Below are positions 1-12,629 of a stretch of 64,000 bases of DNA, piece by piece (the stretch's first letter is position 1; every line of letters begins with the position of its first letter). This DNA comes from Saccharopolyspora gregorii (lineage in GTDB: Bacteria > Actinomycetota > Actinomycetes > Mycobacteriales > Pseudonocardiaceae): NCBI RefSeq assembly GCF_024734405.1, contig NZ_CP059556.1, positions 1,984,001 through 2,048,000 of the forward strand, written 5' to 3'. A program made the translations under genes and the position numbers. The notes below the pieces were generated by a model. That model worked only from the letters and a program-made list of their open reading frames with translations, was not told the DNA's origin and ran no database searches.

Positions 1-2059
1 CTTCGTAGGCGCGGCGGCTCGCGATCGGTGTGTCCATGAAGGCGTGCACCAGCTCGAACTCGACGGAGAAGATCGGCAGCGTGCTGGGCGAGGTACCCCA
101 GTCCTGGCTGACGGTGTCGCCGACCAGGAACCACTTGGCGTCGGGGAACACCTTGCGCAGCATCCGCATCGTTCCTGCCGGGTCACCGCTGCTCTCGAAC
201 AGGTCGTGCATCATGAGGAAGCTCGTGACCAGCTCGACGCCGGGGAACGTCCGCTCGTCGAGGACGTCGAGGACGTCGGCGCACACGACTTCCACGCGGT
301 GTCCCAGTCCCGCGTCGGCGACGCGTTTGACCGCCTTTTCGCAGGCTCCCCGGCTGGTGTCGATTCCGAGCCCGGTGCGGGCCTCGTTCGATCCGCACAG
401 CCGGATCAACCGGGAGGCATCACCGCACCCGAGGTCCGCGACGGTGCCGAAATCGACGTCCGCGACGACCTCGTGCTCGGTGCGCAGCATGAGTTCTTCG
501 CCGACCAGACCGGAGCCGACGGCGACCTTCCCGCCATCGCGGTCGACGTCCGTGCCGAAGGTGGCCCGGCCCGTGGCCAGGTCGGAGAGGTGGAGCAGCA
601 CGTCGCTGTACCCGCCGATTCCCCAGGTGAAGAAACCCCGGTGACGCGCCAGCACCCGTCCGGCGTCGGTCAGCGCGACCGTGCTCGCGGTCCCCGGATC
701 CGACGGAGTGACAGCGGAACTCACCTCGACGTAGCCGAGCAGCGCGGCGGCGCGCAGGAGCGCGAGCAGCTTCGACGGCTCCGCTCCGGTCAGCGGGGGG
801 AGAGCGTCGAACGGTCGCGCACCGTCCTGGAGGTGCTGCCAGACGTTCAGCTCGGTCAGGGCGAAGACCACGTTGGCGCCCACGTAGCCGTTGAACAGCG
901 CCGCCGGTTCGATCACGGGTCCGGTGGCCACCTGGATGCGGCCCTTCGGAGCGCCGAGTCCGGTGTTCAACTCGTCGTGCACTTCGGAGTCTTCGAGGAT
1001 GGTGGCCAGCGCAGCGCAGAACCGGTCCATCTGCTCCGTCGTACCGACGGTGACCCGCAGGTGGGCGGGCAGACCGAACATGCTCAGGTCCCGGACCAGG
1101 ATGTCGTGGTCCTGCTTCAGCCGCGCGGCGATCTCAGCGCTGTTGCCGGACGGCTTGACGAGCACGAAGTTCGTGGCAGAAGGCTGGAACGCCACGCCCA
1201 TCTCGGTCAGGCGCGCGCAGAAGTGCTCCCGCGCCGCGACCGTCTTCCGCCGTACCTCGTCGACGTAGTCGCGGGACTCCAGCGCCGCGGCCCCGGCCTG
1301 CTGGACGATTCGATTGACGCTGAACGGCAGCGGCTCCCGGGTCCGGCGGATGCGCTCGACCAGGTCCGCCGGACCGAGCGCACACCCGAGTCGCAGGGAT
1401 GCCAGCCCCCACGCCTTGGAGAACGTGCGGAGCACCAGCAGACGACGACCGGCGCGGACCGCGCTGATCGCGTATTCGTGGTCCGGCCCCGCGAACTCCA
1501 TGTACGCCTCGTCGAACACCGGGATCACGCCGGCGGCCTCGGCGGCCGTGAGGATCCGCTCGACGTCGGAGGGTTCGAGCACCGTTCCCGCCGGGTTGTG
1601 CGGGTTGCAGACGAACACCAGCGTGGGCGCTCCTGCCTCCGGCGCGGCCATCGCCTGCACCACGGCGTCGACCGGCACCCGGTAGTCGTCCAACGGCAGG
1701 CTGTGGACGCGGGCGCCGACCACGCGCGCGGAGGAGACGTATCCGGGGAACGTCGAATCGGTGACCAGAACCGCGTCGTCGGAGCCGAGGAAGGTCATCG
1801 AGGTCAGCAGCACGAGTTCGTCGGCTCCGTTGCCCACGACCACCATGTCGGACTTCAGGCCGTGGTACTCGGCGACCCGTTCGCGCAGTTCCGCGCAGTC
1901 GCTGTCCGGATAGGACGTGCAGGCGTTGTCGAGTTCCTCGGTCGCCGCGCCGAGCGCGGCGGGTGGTGGCGGATAGGCGCTCTCGTTGCAGTGCAGCCTG
2001 AGAACTCCGTCCTGTCGTGCCACTCGTGAGGACCCGGTCTCGGTCGGCATCCGGCCCAT
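1..2059 (-). CDS. Fused PLP aminotransferase / SAM-dependent methyltransferase, C-terminus beyond window
   Basis: An open frame of 686 codons runs from ATG at 2059, behind AAGGGG about 6 nt upstream, off the left edge. Residues about 15-355 are a class I/II aminotransferase like HisC: a CNPHNPAGT motif, a FDEAYMEF segment and the PLP lysine in TFSKAWG at K215. From about residue 375 a winged-helix dimerisation-type region (ALFNGYVGANVVFALTELNV) leads to a Rossmann methyltransferase with motif I VADLGCGDAS near residue 537. It is the third gene of a minus-strand set behind the VioB-like enzyme and the P450, 86 nt after the former. The likely role is to make or use an alpha-keto acid or imine and to methylate an intermediate; the substrate cannot be read from the sequence. 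Architecture is seen directly; pathway role is inferred. Confidence 0.85.
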   Translation of the reverse strand, partial: MGRMPTETGSSRVARQDGVLRLHCNESAYPPPPAALGAATEELDNACTSYPDSDCAELRERVAEYHGLKSDMVVVGNGADELVLLTSMTFLGSDDAVLVTDSTFPGYVSSARVVGARVHSLPLDDYRVPVDAVVQAMAAPEAGAPTLVFVCNPHNPAGTVLEPSDVERILTAAEAAGVIPVFDEAYMEFAGPDHEYAISAVRAGRRLLVLRTFSKAWGLASLRLGCALGPADLVERIRRTREPLPFSVNRIVQQAGAAALESRDYVDEVRRKTVAAREHFCARLTEMGVAFQPSATNFVLVKPSGNSAEIAARLKQDHDILVRDLSMFGLPAHLRVTVGTTEQMDRFCAALATILEDSEVHDELNTGLGAPKGRIQVATGPVIEPAALFNGYVGANVVFALTELNVWQHLQDGARPFDALPPLTGAEPSKLLALLRAAALLGYVEVSSAVTPSDPGTASTVALTDAGRVLARHRGFFTWGIGGYSDVLLHLSDLATGRATFGTDVDRDGGKVAVGSGLVGEELMLRTEHEVVADVDFGTVADLGCGDASRLIRLCGSNEARTGLGIDTSRGACEKAVKRVADAGLGHRVEVVCADVLDVLDERTFPGVELVTSFLMMHDLFESSGDPAGTMRMLRKVFPDAKWFLVGDTVSQDWGTSPSTLPIFSVEFELVHAFMDTPIASRRAYE

Positions 2060-2145
2060 GTGTACCCCTTCACGTGCGGATGAGTAGTTCCGGTGATTTC
2101 GTCCTCACTGGACAGTCGCGAGGGCGGAGTCGACGGCGGCCGGTG

Positions 2146-4881
2146 TCAGAACTCGACACCGGGGGACTGGAACGCGGGTCCGAGCACGGTGTCGCCGTCC
2201 CCGGACGGCATGTCGTGGAGCTTCTTGGCCTGCACCTGGAGCTGGTACATCAGCCCGACGGAGTCGTCGAGTTCGTCGGGATGGCCGTTGAACACGCGGT
2301 GCAACGCGGTGAGCATGTTCGTGTAGGACTCGTCGCAGGCCACCGATTCGCGCCTGCCGGGGGAGTCGGCCGGGAGGCGGTAGGTGTCCGCGTCGTCCAC
2401 GACCGGATGGACCCCGGCCGGGTCGAAGGGCACCTCGGCTCCCTCGAACACCCACGCACCGCGCTCGTTCCGGATGAGTCGGCGTCCCTCCACGATCTCC
2501 TGGAAGCGGTAGTAGTGGCCGAACTCGTCGGGGTCGAGGACGCCGTCACCGTCGAGGTCGTGCGGGCTCCCCTCGCCCTCCTCGATGATCTGGTAGATGG
2601 CCAGCAGCGCGGAGCGCTTGTCGGTGACCTTGTAGAGCGTGCCCGGCGCGTCCGGCCAACTCACCTGGCGGGCGGGATCACCGGTGAACAGCGACCCGCC
2701 GTCGTCGAGTTCGCAGATCGCCCGCGCGATCTGGTTGTAGAACCAACCGATCGTCTGCGGTGTGTACTCGGCTCGGTTGAACCAGTCCTCCAGAGCCCGC
2801 ATGGCGCCGTCGTCGGCCTCCAGCACGGAGCCGGAACGGTCCAGCCGCACGCTGTCCGGTGCGATGACGGAACCGCGGAACAGTGCACCGTCCACAGTGG
2901 GGTGATCCGGCTGCTCGATCGCCATGAACACGTCCTTGACGTGCTCGCGGGACAGCTTGCGCAGCCGTACGGTCAGATCGGGCAGCACCGGACCGGGAAG
3001 CTTGCCAGGATAGGTCGGGACCAAGCCGGGCCTGCCGATCTGCGGTGCCCCGCCCACGGCGTTGAGCAGGTTGCAGACCTGGGCCATGTGCTGCATCTCC
3101 TCGATGACCACCCCACGGATCGTCTCGGCGATCCGCACGTTGTGGCCTGCCTTGATCGAGAGCAGCGCCGCGAGGTACGGCGGCACCGTGGCCTGCTCGA
3201 CCAAGACGGCCTGCTGTAGCACGGCACGCAGTTCTTCGGGACTGCCGATCTCCATCACCGGGGGAGCGGGCTCGGTCCGCAGCCACTTCACGATCATGTC
3301 TCGCTTTCCTGGTGAGAGGTCTCGGGTGACGGGCATGTGGTTCGGCGATTCCAGCGGGGCCAGCATCGTGCGGCGGATGTAGGTCCCGTGCCGCGTGACG
3401 TGGTGGTAGTTGCCCAGGTCGAAGAGGTCGTGCATGACCGGGTAGAGGTTGGCGTACCGCTGGAAGATCGGCCGCACGTCGCGGTTCCAGGTGGGGCGCT
3501 CCGGGCCGGTGTAGCGGTCGAACACCCGCACGCTGAGATGGCCCGACGGCGCGTCCGGTCGTGCGGCGAACCGGTAGGGGATGCGCACGGTGAGCCCGTC
3601 GAGCATCGGGCGGGGATGGCCGGGGTCCCGGCCGGTGAGGGTGATGCGCGCACGCCCCTGCTCGTCGGTCGTCACGCTGCGCGGAAACTCCACGACGTCG
3701 GACTCTTCGCCGGTACCGAGCGCGATGTCGGTGTGGGCGGCAGGTTGCCCGAAGCGAAACGCGCGGAAGTCGACGGTCGCGGTGTCGTGCCCCTCCTCGG
3801 GGTGGAGCCGGAAGACGTACTTGTCGGCGTGGAGCGTCCCGCCGTCGTGGGGCTCGGCGAGCAGCACCTTCGGCGGTCGTGCGTCGTCCACCACTGCCAG
3901 CCGTCGACCGGCCACCGCCTCGTGCTGACCGGCGGCGGGCCGAGCGGTGACGATGGCGGCAGTGCGTTCGTAGAAGCCCTGGTCGATGCCGTCGAGCGGA
4001 GCGAGCACCTCCGGCGTGCCGTTCTCGTCGAGCGCGGCGAGGCTCAGCGCCGGGAGCTCGACGAGAGGCCCACCGCGTGTCGACGCCCTGATGCTGTTGC
4101 CCAGGTCCACGAAAACGATTCCCGAACCGTCCACTCTGCACGGCGCATGGTGGAACGGCGCGCCTTCGACGGGACTCAGGACACGGGCGCCTGCCCAGTG
4201 CTTCGGCTGCCCGCTCCGATAGGGCCCGATCGATCCCACCATGCGGCCGTAGGTGAGGTCGTCGCTCCACTCCTCGATCCCGTCCTCGACACCGTCCATG
4301 TTGAACTTGATCGAGAGCGTTCCGTCGTCGGTGGTGTCCCGGATCTCGCGCAGGATGGCCGATTCGAGCGGGTCCGCCCACTCCAGGTTGGTCAGCACCG
4401 AGTGGTACACCGCCGCCGGGTCGCCGCGGCCGGACGGCAGCGTCGCCCGCATCCACATCTCGTCCATAGCCGCTACGGCGTAGTCGGCTTTCAGGAGTTG
4501 GCCGCCCGCCGCGTCCAGGAGTCGCATCCGCAATCCGTAGATCTCGGAGACCAGCTGGTTCTCCGGGTCGAGATCGACGAACTTCCCGTTGGCGCGGAGG
4601 TCGTCGTCCCGCACCGTTCCTTCGAGAGCGGGGTCGTCGGCCTTCGACGTCAGGGTGCGGCCGTCGGCGTAGCAGGCGCTGGTGATGCGCAGGTCGTGCA
4701 ACCGCAGCGCGTTGGATCCGCCAGGGTTCCACAACCCGTTGACGTCCGGGAGCTTCATCCGCCAGTGGAAGCGCGGTTCGAACAGGTCGTTGTCGAAGTA
4801 CGGCTGGGCGTTGTTCACCGTGGCGGCGTCGGACTGGAACGTACCCGCGAAGTTCAGCCGCGGGTGTCCGAGGTAGGTCAC
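2146..4881 (-). CDS. VioB/RebD/StaD-like ferritin-like enzyme (imine-dimer synthase family)
   Basis: The 911-residue protein has the two-part layout of the chromopyrrolate/violacein dimer synthases: an N-terminal part opening with TYLGHPRLNFAGTF, like the start of VioB, and a C-terminal ferritin-like domain. Likely metal ligands are E562 (LVEQATVPPYL), E594/E595 and H598 (IEEMQHM), and the HYYRFQEIV segment. The tail MYQLQVQAKKLHDMPSGDG mirrors the VioB end. I chose GTG 4881 because GGGAGG lies 6 nt upstream and the protein then begins at the conserved block; a longer frame opens at 5007. Residues 775-786 form a canonical EF-hand loop (DLDGDGVLDPDE) just before the HYYRF helix. Family members join two aromatic imines; the substrate here is unknown. 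The P450 lies 221 nt upstream. Confidence 0.85.
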   Translation of the reverse strand: MTYLGHPRLNFAGTFQSDAATVNNAQPYFDNDLFEPRFHWRMKLPDVNGLWNPGGSNALRLHDLRITSACYADGRTLTSKADDPALEGTVRDDDLRANGKFVDLDPENQLVSEIYGLRMRLLDAAGGQLLKADYAVAAMDEMWMRATLPSGRGDPAAVYHSVLTNLEWADPLESAILREIRDTTDDGTLSIKFNMDGVEDGIEEWSDDLTYGRMVGSIGPYRSGQPKHWAGARVLSPVEGAPFHHAPCRVDGSGIVFVDLGNSIRASTRGGPLVELPALSLAALDENGTPEVLAPLDGIDQGFYERTAAIVTARPAAGQHEAVAGRRLAVVDDARPPKVLLAEPHDGGTLHADKYVFRLHPEEGHDTATVDFRAFRFGQPAAHTDIALGTGEESDVVEFPRSVTTDEQGRARITLTGRDPGHPRPMLDGLTVRIPYRFAARPDAPSGHLSVRVFDRYTGPERPTWNRDVRPIFQRYANLYPVMHDLFDLGNYHHVTRHGTYIRRTMLAPLESPNHMPVTRDLSPGKRDMIVKWLRTEPAPPVMEIGSPEELRAVLQQAVLVEQATVPPYLAALLSIKAGHNVRIAETIRGVVIEEMQHMAQVCNLLNAVGGAPQIGRPGLVPTYPGKLPGPVLPDLTVRLRKLSREHVKDVFMAIEQPDHPTVDGALFRGSVIAPDSVRLDRSGSVLEADDGAMRALEDWFNRAEYTPQTIGWFYNQIARAICELDDGGSLFTGDPARQVSWPDAPGTLYKVTDKRSALLAIYQIIEEGEGSPHDLDGDGVLDPDEFGHYYRFQEIVEGRRLIRNERGAWVFEGAEVPFDPAGVHPVVDDADTYRLPADSPGRRESVACDESYTNMLTALHRVFNGHPDELDDSVGLMYQLQVQAKKLHDMPSGDGDTVLGPAFQSPGVEF

Positions 4882-5102
4882 GGTGATCCTCCCACTGTCC
4901 GGTCGAGCGTCTGGCTTTCGTCGTGCAGCGGCCCGGCCGGATGCGCTCTGGGCCGCGAGGGACGTCGAGATGTCCCTGCCAACGACACGATCGGGACCTT
5001 CCGGCACCGGTGCAAGGCCCTGAAGCCAGGAATCCGTCCCGAGACGGCGCTTTCACCCTGGACTTAACCGTCCATCGTGGACGATGCGTCGAAGCGTGGG
5101 CG

Positions 5103-6308
5103 TCATGTGCCGAACTCGACCGGCAGTTCCTTGGCGAACCGGAAGTTGATGCTGTCGAGCCAGTCCAGGTCGTCGGTCCGCAGCCTGAGTTCGGTCGTCC
5201 GCTCCAGCAGGACGCGCAGCGCGATCTCGATTTCGGCGAGCGCGAGCGAGGCCCCGAGGCAGTAGTGGATGCCGTGTCCGAACGACAGGTGGTCGGTCGC
5301 TTTGCGGGTGATGTCGAGACGATCCGGGTCGTCGTAGCGGCGTGGGTCGCGGTTGCCCGCCCCGAGGACCAGGGTGACGGACTGGCCCTGCTCGACGTGC
5401 TGGTCGCCGACCTCCATGCCTTCCAGCGCGACACGGGTGGTGAACTGCACCGAGCTGTCGTACCGCATCAACTCGTGGACCGCGACCTGGCAGAGGTCGG
5501 GATCGGCCCGGAGCCGGGCGAGCTGATCGGGGTGGCGCAGCAGCGCCAGGACCGCGTTGCCGATGAGGTGGGTCGTGGTGGCCTGTCCGGCGTCGATGAG
5601 CAGCAGGAAGTTGGCGAAGACCTCGTCGTCGGTGTAGGTCTCGCGTTCGAGCTGTCCGGCGATCACCTGGCTGAAGAGGTCGTCGGCGGTACCCGCACGT
5701 CGCTTCGCGGCCTGCTCGTCGAAGGCGGCCCGCAGGGAGTTCACCCGGGGGACTTCCGCGCAGGACTGGGTGAAGAACTCGTGCAGCAGACCTTGCCAGT
5801 TCTCCAGCAGCGGGGTGGCGTGGCCGGGCACTCCGGCCAGGTGTGCGATCACGTTCCGGGACAGCGGCTCGGAGAAGTCGCCGATGACGTCCATGTGCCC
5901 CTGGTCGAGCACCGCGTCCACGAGTTCCGCCGCGCGCTCGGTGATCAGCGGGCGCATCTCCCGGATGAACCTCGGGGTCAGACCCGGTTTGATGATGCGG
6001 CGCAGGCGGGTGTGCTCCGGCGGCTCGTTGAACAGCATCATGTCCGACAGCGCGCCGGCGAGCGGCTCCACATCGGAGCGGACCGATGCCGGGAGCTGGG
6101 CGTGGAAGTCTTCGATGCGCGCACCGGAGAGCCGGTCGTCCTTGGAAAGCTGCGCGATCTCGGCGTGACCGAGGACGATCCAGCTCCGCATCCAGTCGTC
6201 CCACTGGACCGGGCCGTCCTCGCGCATCGCGTGGTACAGCGCGTAGGGATCAGCTGCCCAGTCCGGCTGGTAGAGGCTGAGCAGGCTGAGCTTGCTCGAG
6301 GGAGCCAT
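5103..6308 (-). CDS. Cytochrome P450
   Basis: The 401-residue soluble bacterial P450 shows the heme loop FGHGIHYCLG with thiolate Cys350, the ExxR of the K helix (HELMRYDS) and an I-helix oxygen-binding segment LLLIDAGQATTT with the usual acid replaced by Gln. The start is ATG 6308 with GGAAGGA about 9 nt upstream. It is the first gene of the minus-strand set P450 - VioB-like - aminotransferase/methyltransferase and probably oxidises or couples the dimer, as StaP/RebP do after StaD/RebD. No ferredoxin or reductase gene is in view. Family assignment is certain; the link to the neighbouring dimer synthase is inference from order and strand. Confidence 0.93.
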   Translation of the reverse strand: MAPSSKLSLLSLYQPDWAADPYALYHAMREDGPVQWDDWMRSWIVLGHAEIAQLSKDDRLSGARIEDFHAQLPASVRSDVEPLAGALSDMMLFNEPPEHTRLRRIIKPGLTPRFIREMRPLITERAAELVDAVLDQGHMDVIGDFSEPLSRNVIAHLAGVPGHATPLLENWQGLLHEFFTQSCAEVPRVNSLRAAFDEQAAKRRAGTADDLFSQVIAGQLERETYTDDEVFANFLLLIDAGQATTTHLIGNAVLALLRHPDQLARLRADPDLCQVAVHELMRYDSSVQFTTRVALEGMEVGDQHVEQGQSVTLVLGAGNRDPRRYDDPDRLDITRKATDHLSFGHGIHYCLGASLALAEIEIALRVLLERTTELRLRTDDLDWLDSINFRFAKELPVEFGT

Positions 6309-6582: not shown

Positions 6583-9090
6583 TCAGTCGGACCCGATCGC
6601 CTCCAGCATGTTGGTGCGTGCCGCCCGGTGGGCGGGCCATAGCGAGGCCAGCACACCGACGATGACGATCCCGACCAGGGCGAGCAGGATCAGCGTCCAC
6701 GGGAGCGTCGCCCGGGACAGCGCCTGCCCGAGCATCGCGTGCTGCATCACCGTCCCGGTACCGACTCCGACACCGACCCCGAGGATGCCGCCGAACAGGG
6801 AGATCACGATGCTCTCCACCCTGATCGTACGGCGGACGAGGGCGCGGCCGGCTCCGACCGCGCGGGTCACGCCGATCTCGCGGGACCGCTCCATCACCGA
6901 GAGCGCGAGCGTGTTGACGACGCCGAAGACGGCGATCACGATCGCGACGCCGAACATCGCGTACATGACCAGCAGGCCGTACCGGAACTCCTCCACCCGG
7001 TCGGCGATCACCCCGTCCCGATCGGTGATCGAGATCTCGGGACGGTCCTGGAAGGCGGTCGCGATGGCCTCGCGCGCGGCCTGCGGGTCGGGGCCGCCGG
7101 CGTAGACCGTCGTGACGTGGTCGCGCAGGTGCGGCGGTGCCAGGGCCTGGTCGAAGAAGATGCTCGCCTGTGCTTCGGTGGCGTCGTAGACGCCGACCAC
7201 CGCGGTCTTCACCGGCGTTCCCTCGACGACCAGCTCGAGCGGGTCGCCGACCTCGAGGCCGAGCATGTTCGCCTCGTTCTGCGCGATGATCGCACCGCGC
7301 GACACGTCGTCGGTCCCTTCGGTGATCTTCGGGGTGAGCACCTCGCCCAGCCCCTCGCGGTCGATCGCGGAGACGATGCGCTCGCTCGTGCCACCCTCGT
7401 GCCGGATTTCGGCGAAGGTGTCCCTGCTGGCGAGGACGGTGGAGACGGCGGGCAGCGACCTGAGTTCCCCGACCACGCCGGGGCCGAGGGTGGCGGCGCC
7501 ACCGGCGGCCGGTTCCAGCACCGTCGAGGTCACCGGGATGTTCAGCCGGATCGAGGCCGTCACCATCGTGGCCAGACTGGAGCTGAGCGTCGCGAAGGCG
7601 CACACGAGCCCGAGCCCGACCATCAGGGTGGTCGCGGTGGCGGCCGTACGCCGGGGGTCGCGGGCCGCGTTGCGCATCCCGAGCCGTGTCGCCGGGCCTC
7701 CCCAGCCCTGCGACCAGGTGGCGAGAGGGCGCAGCGCGCCGGCCGCGACCGGAGTCAGCAGCAGTACCCCGCCCGTGCACAGCACGGCACCGCCGATCGC
7801 GATCATCCGTTCGAGGGTGCCGAGACCGGGAGACGCGGTGGCCACGATCGCGACCAGGCCCGCGACCACGCAGATCCCGCCGGCGATGGACTGGCGGGTG
7901 TGCGGGCCTTTCGACGTCACCGCGTCGTTGCGCAGGGCGGCCATCGGGGAGACCGCCGCCGCGCGCCGGGCGGCACCGTAAGCCGCCGCGACGGTCACCA
8001 GGACCGCCACCAGGTAGCCCGACCCGACGCCGAGCAGCGGAACTCCGTAGCGGACCACGTCGCCCTCGGGCTGCATGAACCGGAACACGATCAGGCCGAG
8101 CCCGATCCCGAGCACCGTGCCGATCGTCGCCCCGACGCACGCGAGCGCGGTCGCCTCGACCACCACGCTCGACCGGACCTGCCTGCGATGGGCACCTACC
8201 GCGCGGAGCAGCGCGAACTGCCTCGTTCGCTGGGTGACCAGGAGGCTGAAGGTGTTGGTGATGACGAACATGCCGACCAACAGCGCGATCGCCGCGAAGG
8301 GCAGCAGTTGCGCGAGTGTGTCCGACGCCGTCTTGTCCGCGGCCTGCTCGGCGTTCGTGACCAGCTCGGCACCGGTGGACACGCTGTACTCATCGGTGGC
8401 GTGCCCGGCTCCGATGGTCTGCTCGGCGGCCTGGCGCAGCGTGCTGGGTTCGGTTCCGGGGGTGCCCGTGAGTTCGATGCGGTCGAAGCGGTCTCCGACG
8501 AGCGACGCCGCGGTCGCCCCGTCGTAGGCGATGGACGGGACGTGCTCGGAGCGGCCCGCGGCATCGGGCCCCAGCGCGGAGTACTGGAAGAGCCCGACGA
8601 CGACGGGTTCGTCGATGCGGCCGTCGCCGAGCACGATCCGGGCACGATCACCCAGGGCGAGCCGTGCCTCGCCGGCGCGCGACTCGGCGAGGGCCACCTC
8701 ACCCGGACGCTGCGGCCCTCGCCCGTCAACGAGGGTGAACCGGCCGGTCTCGTCCCAGTTCGTGCCCGCCAGGTCCGTGCCCGTCGAGACCAGCTTGCCG
8801 TCGGTGCCCACCACACCCGCACGTCCGGCGATCACGCCGTGCGCCTCGGCGACGCCGTTCGGGGCCGCCAACGCGTCGCGGTCGGCGAGCGTCAGATCCG
8901 GGTCCTGGGACGCGGTCTGCACCGACACGTCGACCCCACCCCGGGCGGTCTGCCCGGCGAGCGTCTTGGCCAGGGAGTCGGAGACGACGAAGCTCGCGAC
9001 GACGAACGCGACGCCGAGCGCGATCGCGACCAAGGTCATGGCCAGGCGGCCCCGGTGTGCGCGGAGATCGCGCAGCATTGCTCGCAGCAT
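6583..9090 (-). CDS. FtsX/MacB-type ABC exporter permease
   Basis: This 835-residue integral membrane protein starts with a membrane segment after LRDLRAHRGRLAMTL and carries two copies of the FtsX-like unit: soluble domain, then membrane bundle, each with PMAALRNDAV- or RSREIGVTRAVGA-type coupling segments. ATG 9090 shares its A with the stop of the ATPase gene (TGATG), so the two are translationally coupled. The pair is probably an antibiotic, lipid or lipoprotein export or stress system of the MacB/LolC kind, and the divergent histidine kinase suggests two-component control. A longer frame reaches 9369, but its first part lies inside the ATPase gene. Substrate unknown. Confidence 0.9.
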   Translation of the reverse strand: MLRAMLRDLRAHRGRLAMTLVAIALGVAFVVASFVVSDSLAKTLAGQTARGGVDVSVQTASQDPDLTLADRDALAAPNGVAEAHGVIAGRAGVVGTDGKLVSTGTDLAGTNWDETGRFTLVDGRGPQRPGEVALAESRAGEARLALGDRARIVLGDGRIDEPVVVGLFQYSALGPDAAGRSEHVPSIAYDGATAASLVGDRFDRIELTGTPGTEPSTLRQAAEQTIGAGHATDEYSVSTGAELVTNAEQAADKTASDTLAQLLPFAAIALLVGMFVITNTFSLLVTQRTRQFALLRAVGAHRRQVRSSVVVEATALACVGATIGTVLGIGLGLIVFRFMQPEGDVVRYGVPLLGVGSGYLVAVLVTVAAAYGAARRAAAVSPMAALRNDAVTSKGPHTRQSIAGGICVVAGLVAIVATASPGLGTLERMIAIGGAVLCTGGVLLLTPVAAGALRPLATWSQGWGGPATRLGMRNAARDPRRTAATATTLMVGLGLVCAFATLSSSLATMVTASIRLNIPVTSTVLEPAAGGAATLGPGVVGELRSLPAVSTVLASRDTFAEIRHEGGTSERIVSAIDREGLGEVLTPKITEGTDDVSRGAIIAQNEANMLGLEVGDPLELVVEGTPVKTAVVGVYDATEAQASIFFDQALAPPHLRDHVTTVYAGGPDPQAAREAIATAFQDRPEISITDRDGVIADRVEEFRYGLLVMYAMFGVAIVIAVFGVVNTLALSVMERSREIGVTRAVGAGRALVRRTIRVESIVISLFGGILGVGVGVGTGTVMQHAMLGQALSRATLPWTLILLALVGIVIVGVLASLWPAHRAARTNMLEAIGSD

Positions 9091-9833
9091 CAGAGACCGA
9101 CCTTCTCCAGGGACTTCATCTTGTCCAGCACGCCTTCGGCGGTCGGTGCGTACATCTCGTCCACCAGGCGGCCGTCGGCGAGGAACAACACCCGGTCCGC
9201 GTAGGTAGCGGCCATCGGCTCGTGGGTCACCATGACCACGGTGCGGTCGAAGTCGTCCACGCTGCGGCGGAGGAACGACAGGATGTCCGACGACGACCTG
9301 GAGTCGAGCGCACCGGTCGGTTCGTCGGCGAACACCACGTCCGGCTGGGTGATGAGGGCACGGGCGCATGCCACTCGCTGTTGCTGGCCGCCGGAGAGTT
9401 CGCTCGGCCGGTGGCTGAGCCGGTCCCGCAAGCCGATCGCCTCGATGATCGATTCGGCCACCTGCGGGTCGGGCTTGCGCCCGGCGAGGTCCAGCGGGAG
9501 CGTGATGTTCTCCCAGGCGGTCAGCGTGGGGAGCAGGTTGAACGCCTGGAACACGAACCCGATCCGGTCCCGGCGCAGCTCGGTGAGGGCGACGTCGTCG
9601 AGGCCGGTCAGGGCGGTGCCGCCGACGAAGACCTCACCGTCGCTGGGGGCGTCGAGTCCCGCGACGCAGTGCATCAGCGTCGACTTGCCCGACCCGGACG
9701 GTCCCATGATGGCGGTGAACTGCTCGCTGCGGAACTCGACGTCGACGCTGTCGAGAGCCACGACGCGCGCCTCGGCATGGCCGTACACCTTGGTCAATCC
9801 GGCTGCACGGACGGCAGCGGTCGTTTGAGTCAT
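9090..9833 (-). CDS. MacB/LolD-type ABC transporter ATPase
   Basis: The protein of 247 residues has Walker A GPSGSGKST, Q-loop VFQAFNLLPTLT, signature LSGGQQQRVACARAL, Walker B VVFADEP and switch His in MVTHEP, all intact. It partners the FtsX-type permease that overlaps its stop. ATG 9833 is taken as the start; a GTG two codons upstream (9839) is equally possible because no clear ribosome binding site decides. The gene is divergent from the sensor kinase gene at 9946, with about 110 nt between them for both promoters. Confidence 0.93.
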   Translation of the reverse strand: MTQTTAAVRAAGLTKVYGHAEARVVALDSVDVEFRSEQFTAIMGPSGSGKSTLMHCVAGLDAPSDGEVFVGGTALTGLDDVALTELRRDRIGFVFQAFNLLPTLTAWENITLPLDLAGRKPDPQVAESIIEAIGLRDRLSHRPSELSGGQQQRVACARALITQPDVVFADEPTGALDSRSSSDILSFLRRSVDDFDRTVVMVTHEPMAATYADRVLFLADGRLVDEMYAPTAEGVLDKMKSLEKVGL

Positions 9834-9945
9834 CCGCACAGCGTCGTGCCCGGGAGAGTTCGCTGCCGTCGGCCGATCGGATAGACGATCTGCAACTAAA
9901 GTCGCGCCTCGAAAGGGGACGTCGAACGGCCGTTACGCTCGGCGC

Positions 9946-11169
9946 GTGGACCCCAAGGCGCGCTCGGAATCCCAGCAGCTCGATGCGAAGGACCGGTCGT
10001 GGTCGACGGCCGACCGCGTGCTCGCCGTGGCGGTGTGCCTTGCGGTGTTCGTCGCGACCTTCCTCCCCGCCGGAGCTCTGGTAGCCGAACCGGCCGCGTT
10101 CACCTCGATTCCGGGCCTCGCCCTGACCCTGCTGATCGCCACCCTCTCGGCGGTCGTGACCTGGCTGGCGCCTCGCTGGTCGTGGCCGTTGTACGCACTC
10201 GCGTTCGGTACTTGGTTGATCGCCTCGCTCTGGCCGTTGCTCTGCGTCGCGTCGTTCCGGGCGGCGTTGCGCCTGCGCTCGTTCGTCCTCGCGACCTACG
10301 CGGTCGCGGCGACGGCAGCGGTCATGGCGCCCACTCTCGTGCGCGTGGGGCGGCCGGACGTCGGGTGGGACTCGGTCCAGAGTTCCTTCGGCGGGGTGGC
10401 CCTGTTCGTCGTGCTGCCGTTGTTCATCGGACTGTGGGTGAAAGCGCGACGGCAGGTCGTCGAGGGGCTGCGGGAACGCACCCAGCAGCTTCTGCGGTCG
10501 CAGGAGGCCCGCGCGGAGCAAGCCCGCGCGCAGGAGCGCTCTCGCATCGCCCGCGAGATGCACGACGTGGTGGCGCACCGGGTGTCGCTGATGGTGCTCC
10601 ACGCGGGCGCGATCGAGGCGAACTCGCCGAACGAACTGCTGGCGGACGAGGCCGCGCTGATCCGCCGCACCGGCCGGGAGGCGCTGGGGCAGCTCCGCGA
10701 GGTGCTCGGCGTGCTGCGACTCCACCCGTCGGAGGTCCAGCTGCAGCCGCAGGCCACCGTGGCGGACATCGAGGATCTGGTGGAACGGTCTCGCTCCGCC
10801 GGCCTCGACGTTCGCTATCGGTGTGAAGGCACGCCTGTGGCGTTGCCCGCGATGGTCGACCACACCGCCTACCGGCTCGCGCAAGAAGCGCTCACCAACG
10901 TGCACAAGCACGCCGGAACCGCCAGGACCGAGGTGACGGTGCGGTACCTGACGTCCGCGGTGGAGGTCGGTGTCAGCAACGCGGCTCCGGAACGGGTATC
11001 GGAGGGGCTGCCGGGCAGCGGTCTCGGACTGGTCGGCCTGCACGAGCGGGTGGGACTGCTGCACGGCACGCTCACCACCGGGCCGACCCCGGACGGCGGG
11101 TTCTCCGTCCAGGCGACGTTGCCGACCACTCCGGTGGAGTCCGGCGGGTCCACTCGGGGATCGGAGTGA
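9946..11169 (+). CDS. NarL-family sensor histidine kinase
   Basis: The kinase of 407 residues has several membrane segments in residues about 25-165, a HisKA_3 dimerisation helix with the phospho-acceptor His206 in IAREMHDVVAHRVS, and a HATPase domain with N box (AQEALTNVHKH) and GSGLGLVGLHERV. The start is GTG 9946. It faces away from the ABC exporter it probably controls. Its expected partner regulator begins only at 11982, after 812 nt of decayed DNA; usually these genes overlap or are a few bases apart. Ligand unknown. Confidence 0.92.
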   Translation: MDPKARSESQQLDAKDRSWSTADRVLAVAVCLAVFVATFLPAGALVAEPAAFTSIPGLALTLLIATLSAVVTWLAPRWSWPLYALAFGTWLIASLWPLLCVASFRAALRLRSFVLATYAVAATAAVMAPTLVRVGRPDVGWDSVQSSFGGVALFVVLPLFIGLWVKARRQVVEGLRERTQQLLRSQEARAEQARAQERSRIAREMHDVVAHRVSLMVLHAGAIEANSPNELLADEAALIRRTGREALGQLREVLGVLRLHPSEVQLQPQATVADIEDLVERSRSAGLDVRYRCEGTPVALPAMVDHTAYRLAQEALTNVHKHAGTARTEVTVRYLTSAVEVGVSNAAPERVSEGLPGSGLGLVGLHERVGLLHGTLTTGPTPDGGFSVQATLPTTPVESGGSTRGSE

Positions 11170-11212: not shown

Positions 11213-11590
11213 ACGCCGGTAGCGCCCCGGATCCCCGGCACCGTCGACCATGCGGCGATGCGAGCGGCACTGTCCGATGTGGTCGAACGCCACGAGTCGT
11301 TGAGAACGGTCTTCAGGGAAGACGAGGAGGGGCCGTTCCAGGTCGTGCTGGCACCAGAGTCGGTACGACTCGGTTGCACCACGGTCGAGGTGCCCGAGAG
11401 CGACTTGCGAGGCGAACTCGTCTCGGACGGGCAGGTCAGATTCGATCTCGCGATCGACATTCCCGTGCGCCCCACTCCTTTCGTCGTGCATTCCGACGAC
11501 AAGCCGAATGACGTGACCGAGCATGTGTTGTTGTTGGTGCATCACGTGGTGTCGGATGGTTGGTCGCTCTCGCGCAGCGGATCGCGCAGC
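11213..11590 (+). pseudogene. NRPS condensation-domain fragment
   Basis: About 125 codons read as the N-terminal half of an LCL-type condensation domain: DVVERHESLRTVF, then FDLAIDIPVRPTPF, then the catalytic motif as LVHHVVSDGWS. There is no start codon context, no first 40 residues, and similarity stops right after DGWS, where a minus-strand ABC ATPase fragment begins. It is a relic, not a working NRPS gene. It lies between a sensor kinase and its regulator and marks a rearrangement that once involved a peptide biosynthetic locus. Confidence 0.8.
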
Positions 11591-11790
11591 GCGGCGTAGG
11601 TGCTGCCGTTGATCCGGGTCTCGCCGGAAGTCGGCCGGTCCAAGCCGAGGATCATCCGCATGGTGGTCGACTTGCCGGCCCCGTTCGGGCCGAGGAACCC
11701 GGTGACCTGCCCTGGACTTACCTCGAAGGTCAGGTCTTGGACAGCGGTCGTGCTCCCGTAACGCTTCGTCACGTCGTGCACCGTGATCAT
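11560..11790 (-). pseudogene. Truncated ABC transporter ATPase (N-terminal part only)
   Basis: ATG 11790 opens a frame giving MITVHDVTKRYGSTTAV and an intact Walker A GFLGPNGAGKSTTMRMIL, typical of drug-resistance ABC2 ATPases (DrrA type). After about 75 residues (TYAALRDPLRE) the similarity ends at the junction with the plus-strand condensation fragment. Q-loop, signature and Walker B are missing, so it cannot work. It could still be translated as an 82-residue peptide. Confidence 0.8.
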
Positions 11791-11981: not shown

Positions 11982-12629
11982 GTGATTCGGGTCCTGCTCG
12001 TCGACGACGAGACGCTGGTGCGTACCGGCCTGCGCTTGATCCTCAATCCGGCCGAGGACGTCGAGGTGGTCGGCGAGGCCGGTGACGGCAGGGAAGCCGT
12101 GGACGCCGTCGCCAGGCACCGGCCGGACGTCGTGCTCATGGACGTCCGCATGCCGACCATGGACGGACTCGCCGCGTCGGAGGAACTCCAGCGCCGCGCC
12201 GATCCGCCCAAGATCATCATGCTCACGACCTTCGCCCTGGACGACTACGTGCACCGGGCCCTGCGGGCGGGCGCGGTCGGATTCCTGCTCAAGGACACCG
12301 AGCCGCGGGACCTGCTCGGTGCGGTGCGCACCGTCGCGGCCGGGAGCGCGATGCTCTCGCCCACGGTGACCAAGAGGCTGCTGACGACCTTCGCCGAAAC
12401 CGAGCAGTCGGAGGTCGAGAAGTTCCGCCGGCGGCTGGACGTGCTCACGGCCCGTGAACACGACGTGATCCGCGCTGTGGCACGAGGGCTGTCGAACGCC
12501 GAGATCGCCCGGGAGCTGTTCATGAGCGAGGCGACCGTGAAGGCGCACGTGAGCCGGTCGCTGTCCAAGCTCGGCTTCCGCAACCGGGTCCAAGCGGCGA
12601 TCCTGGTGCACGACGCGGGTTTGGACTGA
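11982..12629 (+). CDS. LuxR/NarL-family response regulator
   Basis: The 215-residue protein has a receiver domain (LLVDDETLVRTG, phospho-acceptor Asp54 in VVLMDVRMPTMDG, Lys in FLLKDTEP) and a C-terminal LuxR helix-turn-helix (LTAREHDVIRAVARGLSNA, ATVKAHVSR). The start is GTG 11982 behind GAGGGGG. It is the natural partner of the kinase ending at 11169 despite the debris between them. It ends 2 nt from the convergent DedA gene. Confidence 0.92.
   Translation: MIRVLLVDDETLVRTGLRLILNPAEDVEVVGEAGDGREAVDAVARHRPDVVLMDVRMPTMDGLAASEELQRRADPPKIIMLTTFALDDYVHRALRAGAVGFLLKDTEPRDLLGAVRTVAAGSAMLSPTVTKRLLTTFAETEQSEVEKFRRRLDVLTAREHDVIRAVARGLSNAEIARELFMSEATVKAHVSRSLSKLGFRNRVQAAILVHDAGLD

Follow-up and report, generated by a model that had tools for sequence, protein, structure and literature searches.

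Possible tryptophan-tailoring genes of a lipopeptide cluster in Saccharopolyspora gregorii: a cytochrome P450, a VioB-like protein and an aminotransferase-methyltransferase fusion

To our knowledge, RebD, StaD and VioB are known only as partners of amino acid oxidases in two-indole pathways. Rebeccamycin clusters also hold a cytochrome P450 (P450), a tryptophan halogenase and a flavin reductase, and the enamine form of the indolepyruvate imine on which RebD and StaD act is dehydrotryptophan. The accessible portion of PMC10851217 presents the flavin adenine dinucleotide-dependent tryptophan oxidase (RebO/StaO) as a feature of indolocarbazole operons, and a title in its reference list names StaD coupling of indolepyruvic acid. 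The stretch studied here is 64,000 nucleotides of the Saccharopolyspora gregorii genome, a single contig of 6.34 Mb; at the left end of this stretch (the window) lie genes for a P450, a VioB/RebD-like ferritin-like protein and an aminotransferase-methyltransferase fusion. The original prediction, made from the letters of the window, was of a bisindole dimer-synthase operon that lacks the usual oxidase and perhaps uses an amino acid other than tryptophan.

Described systems also exist for the chemistry expected of the fusion. According to the part of PMC4742848 available, StnQ1 (a methyltransferase) and StnR (an aminotransferase) alone convert L-Trp to (2S,3R)-beta-methyltryptophan with no added amino donor. 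An excerpt of PMC10502145 describes MppJ as an alpha-keto-acid C-methyltransferase, gives a metal enolate mechanism for SgvM, and names SgvM H244 and H296 as metal-binding counterparts. Telomycin is an undecapeptide with both beta-methyltryptophan and dehydrotryptophan (PMC6331918, in excerpt), so peptides that combine the two exist; the formation of its dehydrotryptophan is called unanswered in the excerpted part of a 2023 review (PMC10880069).

We propose, with moderate confidence, that the three genes represent the precursor-supply and tailoring functions of a non-ribosomal peptide synthetase (NRPS) lipopeptide cluster whose NRPS has been lost in this genome. The fusion would make beta-methyltryptophan, and the P450 and the VioB-like protein would oxidize a tryptophan unit. 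No description of this VioB-like clade or of the fusion was recognized in searches of the open-licence PMC literature.

Gene set and NRPS context

The three genes do form one minus-strand set with open frames, as originally described (Table 1). The VioB-like frame runs from 2146 to 5007 (953 amino acids, of which PF12902 covers residues 597-839 with 185.6 bits against a curated cut-off of 22.3). Its start is most likely the GTG at 4881, since for most relatives the alignment begins at residues 36-43 of this frame, and for the one in L007 (L and G numbers are our labels for loci and genomes) at residue 25. In the fusion, PF00155 (E 5.5e-62) spans residues 19-351 and is followed by the S-adenosylmethionine methyltransferase domain PF13649 (E 1.8e-6). 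The fusion was correctly recognized but does not end at position 1: extension to the left (L003) revealed the complete frame, whose stop codon lies 88 nt outside the window.

The order P450, VioB-like gene, fusion recurs in relatives from other genera. Compared with S. hirsuta, the numbers of differing third, first and second codon positions are 145, 74 and 66 for the P450 (399 codons), 373, 182 and 152 for the VioB-like gene (910 codons) and 301, 183 and 165 for the fusion (711 codons); third-position differences are thus 1.6 to 2.5 times those at first or second positions in all three. Because the same genes stand in the same order in other genera and show this pattern, the set is more than a chance grouping.

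Scanning one genome per species for the VioB-like protein turned up 10 relatives (54-71% identity); in a family scan covering 390 genomes, 19 had a match, which was full length in seven, the window genome included. We read 14 stretches: the window, the 10 of the species scan and three of the family scan; three of the 14 are cut by contig ends. Multi-module NRPSs lie beside the VioB-like gene in seven. The two stretches read furthest, from S. hirsuta and Mangrovihabitans endophyticus, have 11 consecutive modules with a thioesterase-type motif at the end (two adenylation (A) domains of S. hirsuta were missed by the recognition pattern; Mangrovihabitans has three additional A domains upstream of these modules), and in Streptomyces LUP47B the A domains number at least 11. 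The S. hirsuta cluster includes a fatty-acyl-AMP-ligase-like gene (376 bits, below the curated cut-off). Several stretches encode MGT-like glycosyltransferases, a GH95-like protein and a PvdQ-like penicillin amidase (PF01804), and MbtH-like genes were seen by eye in five. A stand-alone adenylation-carrier didomain with the code DIWQSTADDK lies between the VioB-like gene and the fusion in S. hirsuta only (L004:12753-15155).

The NRPS is gone from the window copy. Neither NRPS modules nor a fatty-acyl-AMP ligase was found beside the operon, and fragments are what remains in this genome.

Relation to RebD-type proteins

The VioB-like protein is 51-71% identical to 13 relatives and 24% identical to a RebD-type protein, and in a tree a 100/100 branch separates it from three RebD-type proteins; it therefore stands outside the RebD/StaD clade of chromopyrrolic acid synthases. 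Like RebD, StaD, RedD and VioB (the comparison was made with RebD-type proteins from the scanned genomes), it is homologous over both halves, carries PF12902 and conserves Glu and His residues, but it differs in its low identity, its separate clade, the lack of a RebO-like partner and its NRPS context. Residues E562, E594, E595, H598, E656, E767 and E770 are invariant in 11 clade members and six RebD-like proteins and, by analogy with the ferritin-like fold, would bind metal. A model of the 911-residue protein (mean predicted local distance difference test score 75.5, predicted template modelling (TM) score 0.62) has as its best Foldseek match the ferritin-like 3hl1 (E 8e-7); the others among the 50 matches listed have query TM-scores of at most 0.12.

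PF12902 itself is common, being found in 103 of 386 genomes of the family. From this list 20 loci with long frames were taken, and 19 of them (L115-L133) encode RebD-type proteins. RebO-like genes were sought by tblastn with a single RebO-like protein as query (E 1e-8, the match to cover over half of it). Such an amine oxidase was present in 17 of the 19 RebD-type loci (14 kb read each), and in two of these the combination of oxidase, RebD-like protein and P450 was confirmed by Pfam. The same search found none in any of 15 stretches with window-clade members (three short because of contig ends, and one, G848, with a split gene) nor in the window plus 20 kb to its left. The absence of a RebO-type oxidase from the operon is thus borne out, and neither a place in a known tryptophan-dimerization clade nor an adjacent oxidase of this kind, which together would have marked the set as a conventional dimerization operon, was seen. 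In L008 an amine-oxidoreductase-like protein (PF01593, 61 bits; RebO-like proteins score 200 bits) is encoded 2 kb from the VioB-like gene.

Some relatives have other architectures. In L145 (8558-11418) homologs of the N- and C-terminal halves of the VioB-like protein are two adjacent genes (609 and 344 amino acids), which suggests that the halves are separable units. L135 has an N-terminal-half homolog (34%) with a PF12902-containing frame close by on the other strand (3724-5868 and 6841-9174). Full-length members that branch early in the clade are G186:C1:743211-746039, G384:C5:250053-252806 and G088:C144:21538-25296.

The P450 has orthologs (61-73% identity) in seven of the 13 other stretches. 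Its best PDB match is the P450BioI-like 3ejb (243 bits); 2z3t, which we take to be StaP, ranks 29th among the 60 matches listed, and identity to the RebP-like protein of L117 is 34%, so the window P450 is not of the RebP/StaP type. Its NCBIfam matches include 4-nitrotryptophan synthase, at scores far below the cut-off of 500 (161 bits in the window, 185 in LUP47B).

The fusion, its probable substrate and competing readings

Five of the 14 stretches contain the fusion: the window, S. hirsuta, S. griseomycini, Mangrovihabitans and LUP47B. In four of them (the window, L005, L006 and L011) it is the gene immediately after the VioB-like one; in L004 (S. hirsuta) it is found 5.5 kb downstream of that gene. 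Genome-wide, a full fusion was found in the same five genomes and in no other of the set, and in a 396-genome sample of the phylum it was found in the window genome alone; 43 other genomes of that sample gave E 1e-50 matches to the aminotransferase half (two candidates scored per genome).

The aminotransferase carries the motif TFSKAWGL, with the catalytic Lys of a pyridoxal phosphate aminotransferase. The best PDB match of the methyltransferase half is MppJ (4kib, E 4e-21), followed by a 2-ketoarginine methyltransferase. The His-Asp (HD) and His that we take to be the metal ligands of MppJ are kept in that enzyme, in all five fused methyltransferases and in three unfused ones. In this conservation of His-Asp ... 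His the window protein resembles MppJ, MrsA and SgvM; it differs in being fused to an aminotransferase and in its identity to the MppJ segment (28-31%). The methyltransferase domain suggests that the aminotransferase serves beta-methylation.

The unfused methyltransferases belong to methyltransferase-cupin-aminotransferase cassettes of three genomes, two of which also hold a VioB-like NRPS cluster at another place. To these cassettes the fusion is 39-44% (aminotransferase) and 33-41% (methyltransferase) identical, and they have the gene order that the available part of PMC4742848 gives for stnQ1-stnK3-stnR and marI-marH-marG. The link of the fusion to StnQ1/MarI rests on gene order and family. 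The fusion shares with these systems an aminotransferase and a metal-dependent C-methyltransferase, homologous to the unfused cassettes of that order, but is one chain with the aminotransferase first, and a StnK3-like cupin epimerase, present in all three unfused cassettes (that of G186 matches 6j4b at E 4e-65 and 7eqk at E 6e-65), was found by tblastn in none of the 15 VioB-like stretches. A different cupin protein, of 377 amino acids, is encoded 6 kb left of the window fusion.

We accept tryptophan as the likely substrate, contrary to the initial suggestion of a different amino acid, because of a halogenase gene run, the likeness of the fusion to beta-methyltryptophan cassettes and tryptophan-like NRPS modules. 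In Mangrovihabitans (L006) flavin reductase, halogenase (834 bits to 8fov), VioB-like gene and fusion form one minus-strand run. In Streptomyces acidipaludis (L008) the flavin reductase and halogenase genes (the latter 889 bits to the tryptophan 5-halogenase 2wet) adjoin the GH95-like and VioB-like genes; both halogenases are of the type that acts on free tryptophan. All four fusion clusters in which the NRPS was read have a module 9 A domain with the code DAG[AT]LGVVLK, these domains being 62-70% identical to each other, and module 8 has the code D[AV]A[ML][IMV]GAV (the module numbering of LUP47B may be shifted by one); we take both codes to be tryptophan-like. In Plantactinospora modules 8 and 9 are 66% identical to each other and next slightly nearer to module-8 A domains (22 A domains compared).

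The fusion would then act as StnR and StnQ1 in one chain: it would remove the amino group of L-tryptophan, methylate C-beta of the resulting indole-3-pyruvate on a metal-bound enolate, and restore the amino group to give beta-methyltryptophan. The (2S,3R) isomer would be expected because the clusters have no StnK3-like cupin epimerase. The P450 and the VioB-like enzyme would next oxidize the tryptophan unit, in some species probably halogenated, for use by the two tryptophan-like modules. A single-gene route to beta-methyltryptophan would be useful for producing that amino acid.

For the VioB-like step alpha,beta-desaturation seems most likely, because the enamine that RebD and StaD receive is itself dehydrotryptophan. 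A more specific proposal, that the protein is a new tryptophan oxidase of the RebD superfamily for non-ribosomal peptides which desaturates a Trp unit or couples two neighboring Trp-type residues within the peptide, is rather unlikely in our estimation, but if true it would supply a candidate enzyme for dehydrotryptophan chemistry that is unexplained in such peptides. Full-length RebD relatives in NRPS clusters without the oxidase would show a second job of this enzyme family, and the clade is a testable kind of candidate for the telomycin dehydrotryptophan step. Like telomycin-type clusters, those described here have an acylase, in S. hirsuta the fatty-acyl-AMP-ligase-like gene and, in Mangrovihabitans, the 11 consecutive modules, among whose codes are some that we take to be Asp1, Gly6, Pro7 and Pro-like 11; Mangrovihabitans differs in its Trp-like module 8, an epimerase-type motif after module 4 and its glycosyltransferases. 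Telomycin itself was not identified as a product, and the species scan, which matched exact peptides, listed no Streptomyces canus locus, which speaks mildly against a clade member in the telomycin cluster. In a 392-genome Streptomyces sample three genomes had a VioB-like match (two known clusters and one split gene). A module-9-like A domain occurred in six genomes of a 387-genome sample, two of them the known clusters; in the other four, 60-80 kb were read and contained no VioB-like match, and a gene 31-32% identical to the E chain of a glutamate mutase is present in two of the four.

Several observations weigh against making beta-methyltryptophan and its oxidation by the other two enzymes the purpose of the set. 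The clusters of Plantactinospora, Actinoplanes utahensis and Sciscionella (L009, L010, L012) lack the fusion and carry a glutamate-mutase-like pair instead; beta-methyltryptophan is therefore not required by the VioB-like/P450 pair. G088, G186 and G384 have no fusion, mutase, P450 ortholog or multi-module NRPS in the DNA read. In TRM68367 (L013), sister to a fusion cluster, the assembly contains no fusion, and a mutase gene lies apart from the VioB-like contig, which ends 59 nt past the match. The P450 that precedes the VioB-like gene in S. griseomycini is a different one (30% identity), and none was seen in 16.5 kb of L008. A tryptophan halogenase occurs in only two of the 14 stretches, the tryptophan specificity of the A domains is a prediction from their codes, and the fusion scores below the curated cut-off of the 25 NCBIfam families listed (of 67 matched). 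Finally, at about 40% identity to the cassettes the substrate of the fusion could have changed.

Is the set still in use in the window genome? It may be a relict without a product, left from a decayed cluster and not yet mutated, which is compatible with a tailoring origin and which we regard as a substantial, if tentative, possibility. Beside the loss of the NRPS, with no more than part of a condensation domain and a truncated ABC gene left, this would fit the absence of the VioB-like gene from all five genomes of the same genus searched at E 1e-30. On the other side stand the open frames, the intact aminotransferase and methyltransferase motifs and the codon-position constraint (which may predate the loss). 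A didomain query from S. hirsuta gave no cognate NRPS elsewhere in the genome, its best match being 38%. With a 1000-residue query from the S. hirsuta NRPS the nearest was 53% identical, rejected because it lies, judged by eye, among siderophore-type genes, which favors a relict; the second, 48% identical, at 2.25 Mb, counts against one.

The mutase clusters raise a different reading, in which the fusion, in place of glutamate mutase, supplies 3-methylaspartate without B12, the VioB-like protein and P450 acting on the beta-methyl amino acid. The fusion and the mutase pair never share a stretch (fusion alone five, mutase alone three, both none), each lies beside the VioB-like gene or 5.5 kb off, the mutase pair standing between P450 and VioB-like gene, and Asp-type codes occur in fusion and mutase clusters alike. 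Three members have neither, contigs of three more end too early to tell, and another three genomes of the set encode a mutase E chain elsewhere. We considered 3-methylaspartate because of this exclusivity and demoted it, to an improbable reading, because of the halogenase and cassette findings. The mutase clusters are one clade (100/100), and one exchange, or at most a few, may therefore account for the pattern; the mutase genes pass Pfam cut-offs but not NCBIfam equivalog cut-offs; and the fusion is related to a cassette with a StnK3/MarH-type cupin (typed by gene order) and occurs with the DAG code in four of four cases.

The bisindole operon first suggested, in which the aminotransferase supplies the keto or imino acid, the VioB-like protein dimerizes it and the methyltransferase and P450 tailor the dimer, is slightly less probable still, and we rejected membership of the bisindole operons because of the clade, the partner genes and the surroundings. 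The two-half homology with its Glu and His, the P450, the halogenase and reductase of L006 and L008, and an aminotransferase able to make indolepyruvate all suit it, but the separate clade, the missing oxidase, the distant P450, the NRPS neighbors and the three clusters without any fusion do not, and beta-methylation would be expected to block the C-beta that RebD couples. Just as doubtful is the idea that the fusion yields a different beta-methylated aromatic amino acid, for instance beta-methylphenylalanine: MppJ, which an abstract ties to that compound, is the closest solved structure to the methyltransferase half but is a more distant relative than the cassette methyltransferases, and the L006 halogenase is a tryptophan enzyme in the same gene run.

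Flanking genes and remnants

Table 1. Features of the set and of its right flank in the window
Feature	Positions	Strand	Basis
Cytochrome P450, 401 amino acids	5103..6308	-	PF00067 E 1.5e-23; haem-thiolate loop FGHGIHYCLG
VioB/RebD-like ferritin-like protein, 911 amino acids from likely GTG 4881	2146..4881	-	PF12902 E 1.6e-54
Aminotransferase-methyltransferase fusion	1..2059 in window (686 amino acids); 715 amino acids whole	-	PF00155, PF13649
MacB/FtsX-type ATP-binding cassette (ABC) permease	6583..9093	-	PF02687, PF12704; 53-61% homologs in 3 other stretches
ABC ATP-binding protein, permease partner	9090..9839	-	70-75% homologs in S. hirsuta, Mangrovihabitans, S. griseomycini
Sensor histidine kinase, divergent from ABC genes	9946..11169	+	HisKA_3; 53-57% homologs in 3 other stretches
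NRPS condensation-domain remnant, about 120 amino acids	11219..11596	+	48% to S. hirsuta cluster NRPS
Truncated ABC ATP-binding gene, 82 amino acids, remnant	11542..11790	-	67% over 79 amino acids to ABC gene of S. griseomycini cluster
LuxR-type response regulator	11982..12629	+	Response_reg, GerE; 65-73% homologs beside kinase in Mangrovihabitans, S. griseomycini

In Mangrovihabitans and S. griseomycini the kinase and regulator genes adjoin, whereas in the window the two remnants split them. These fragments, on opposite strands at 11219-11790, are probably the scar of the cluster loss. The left border of the set, reached by the leftward extension that had been called for, is marked by a 241-residue gene with no Pfam match, a gene judged by eye to be amylase-like, and a major facilitator superfamily transporter. 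Two histidinol-dehydrogenase-like genes lie left of the operon in L002 (5653-7182 and 10826-12133), one of them near a gene for a two-domain cupin protein.

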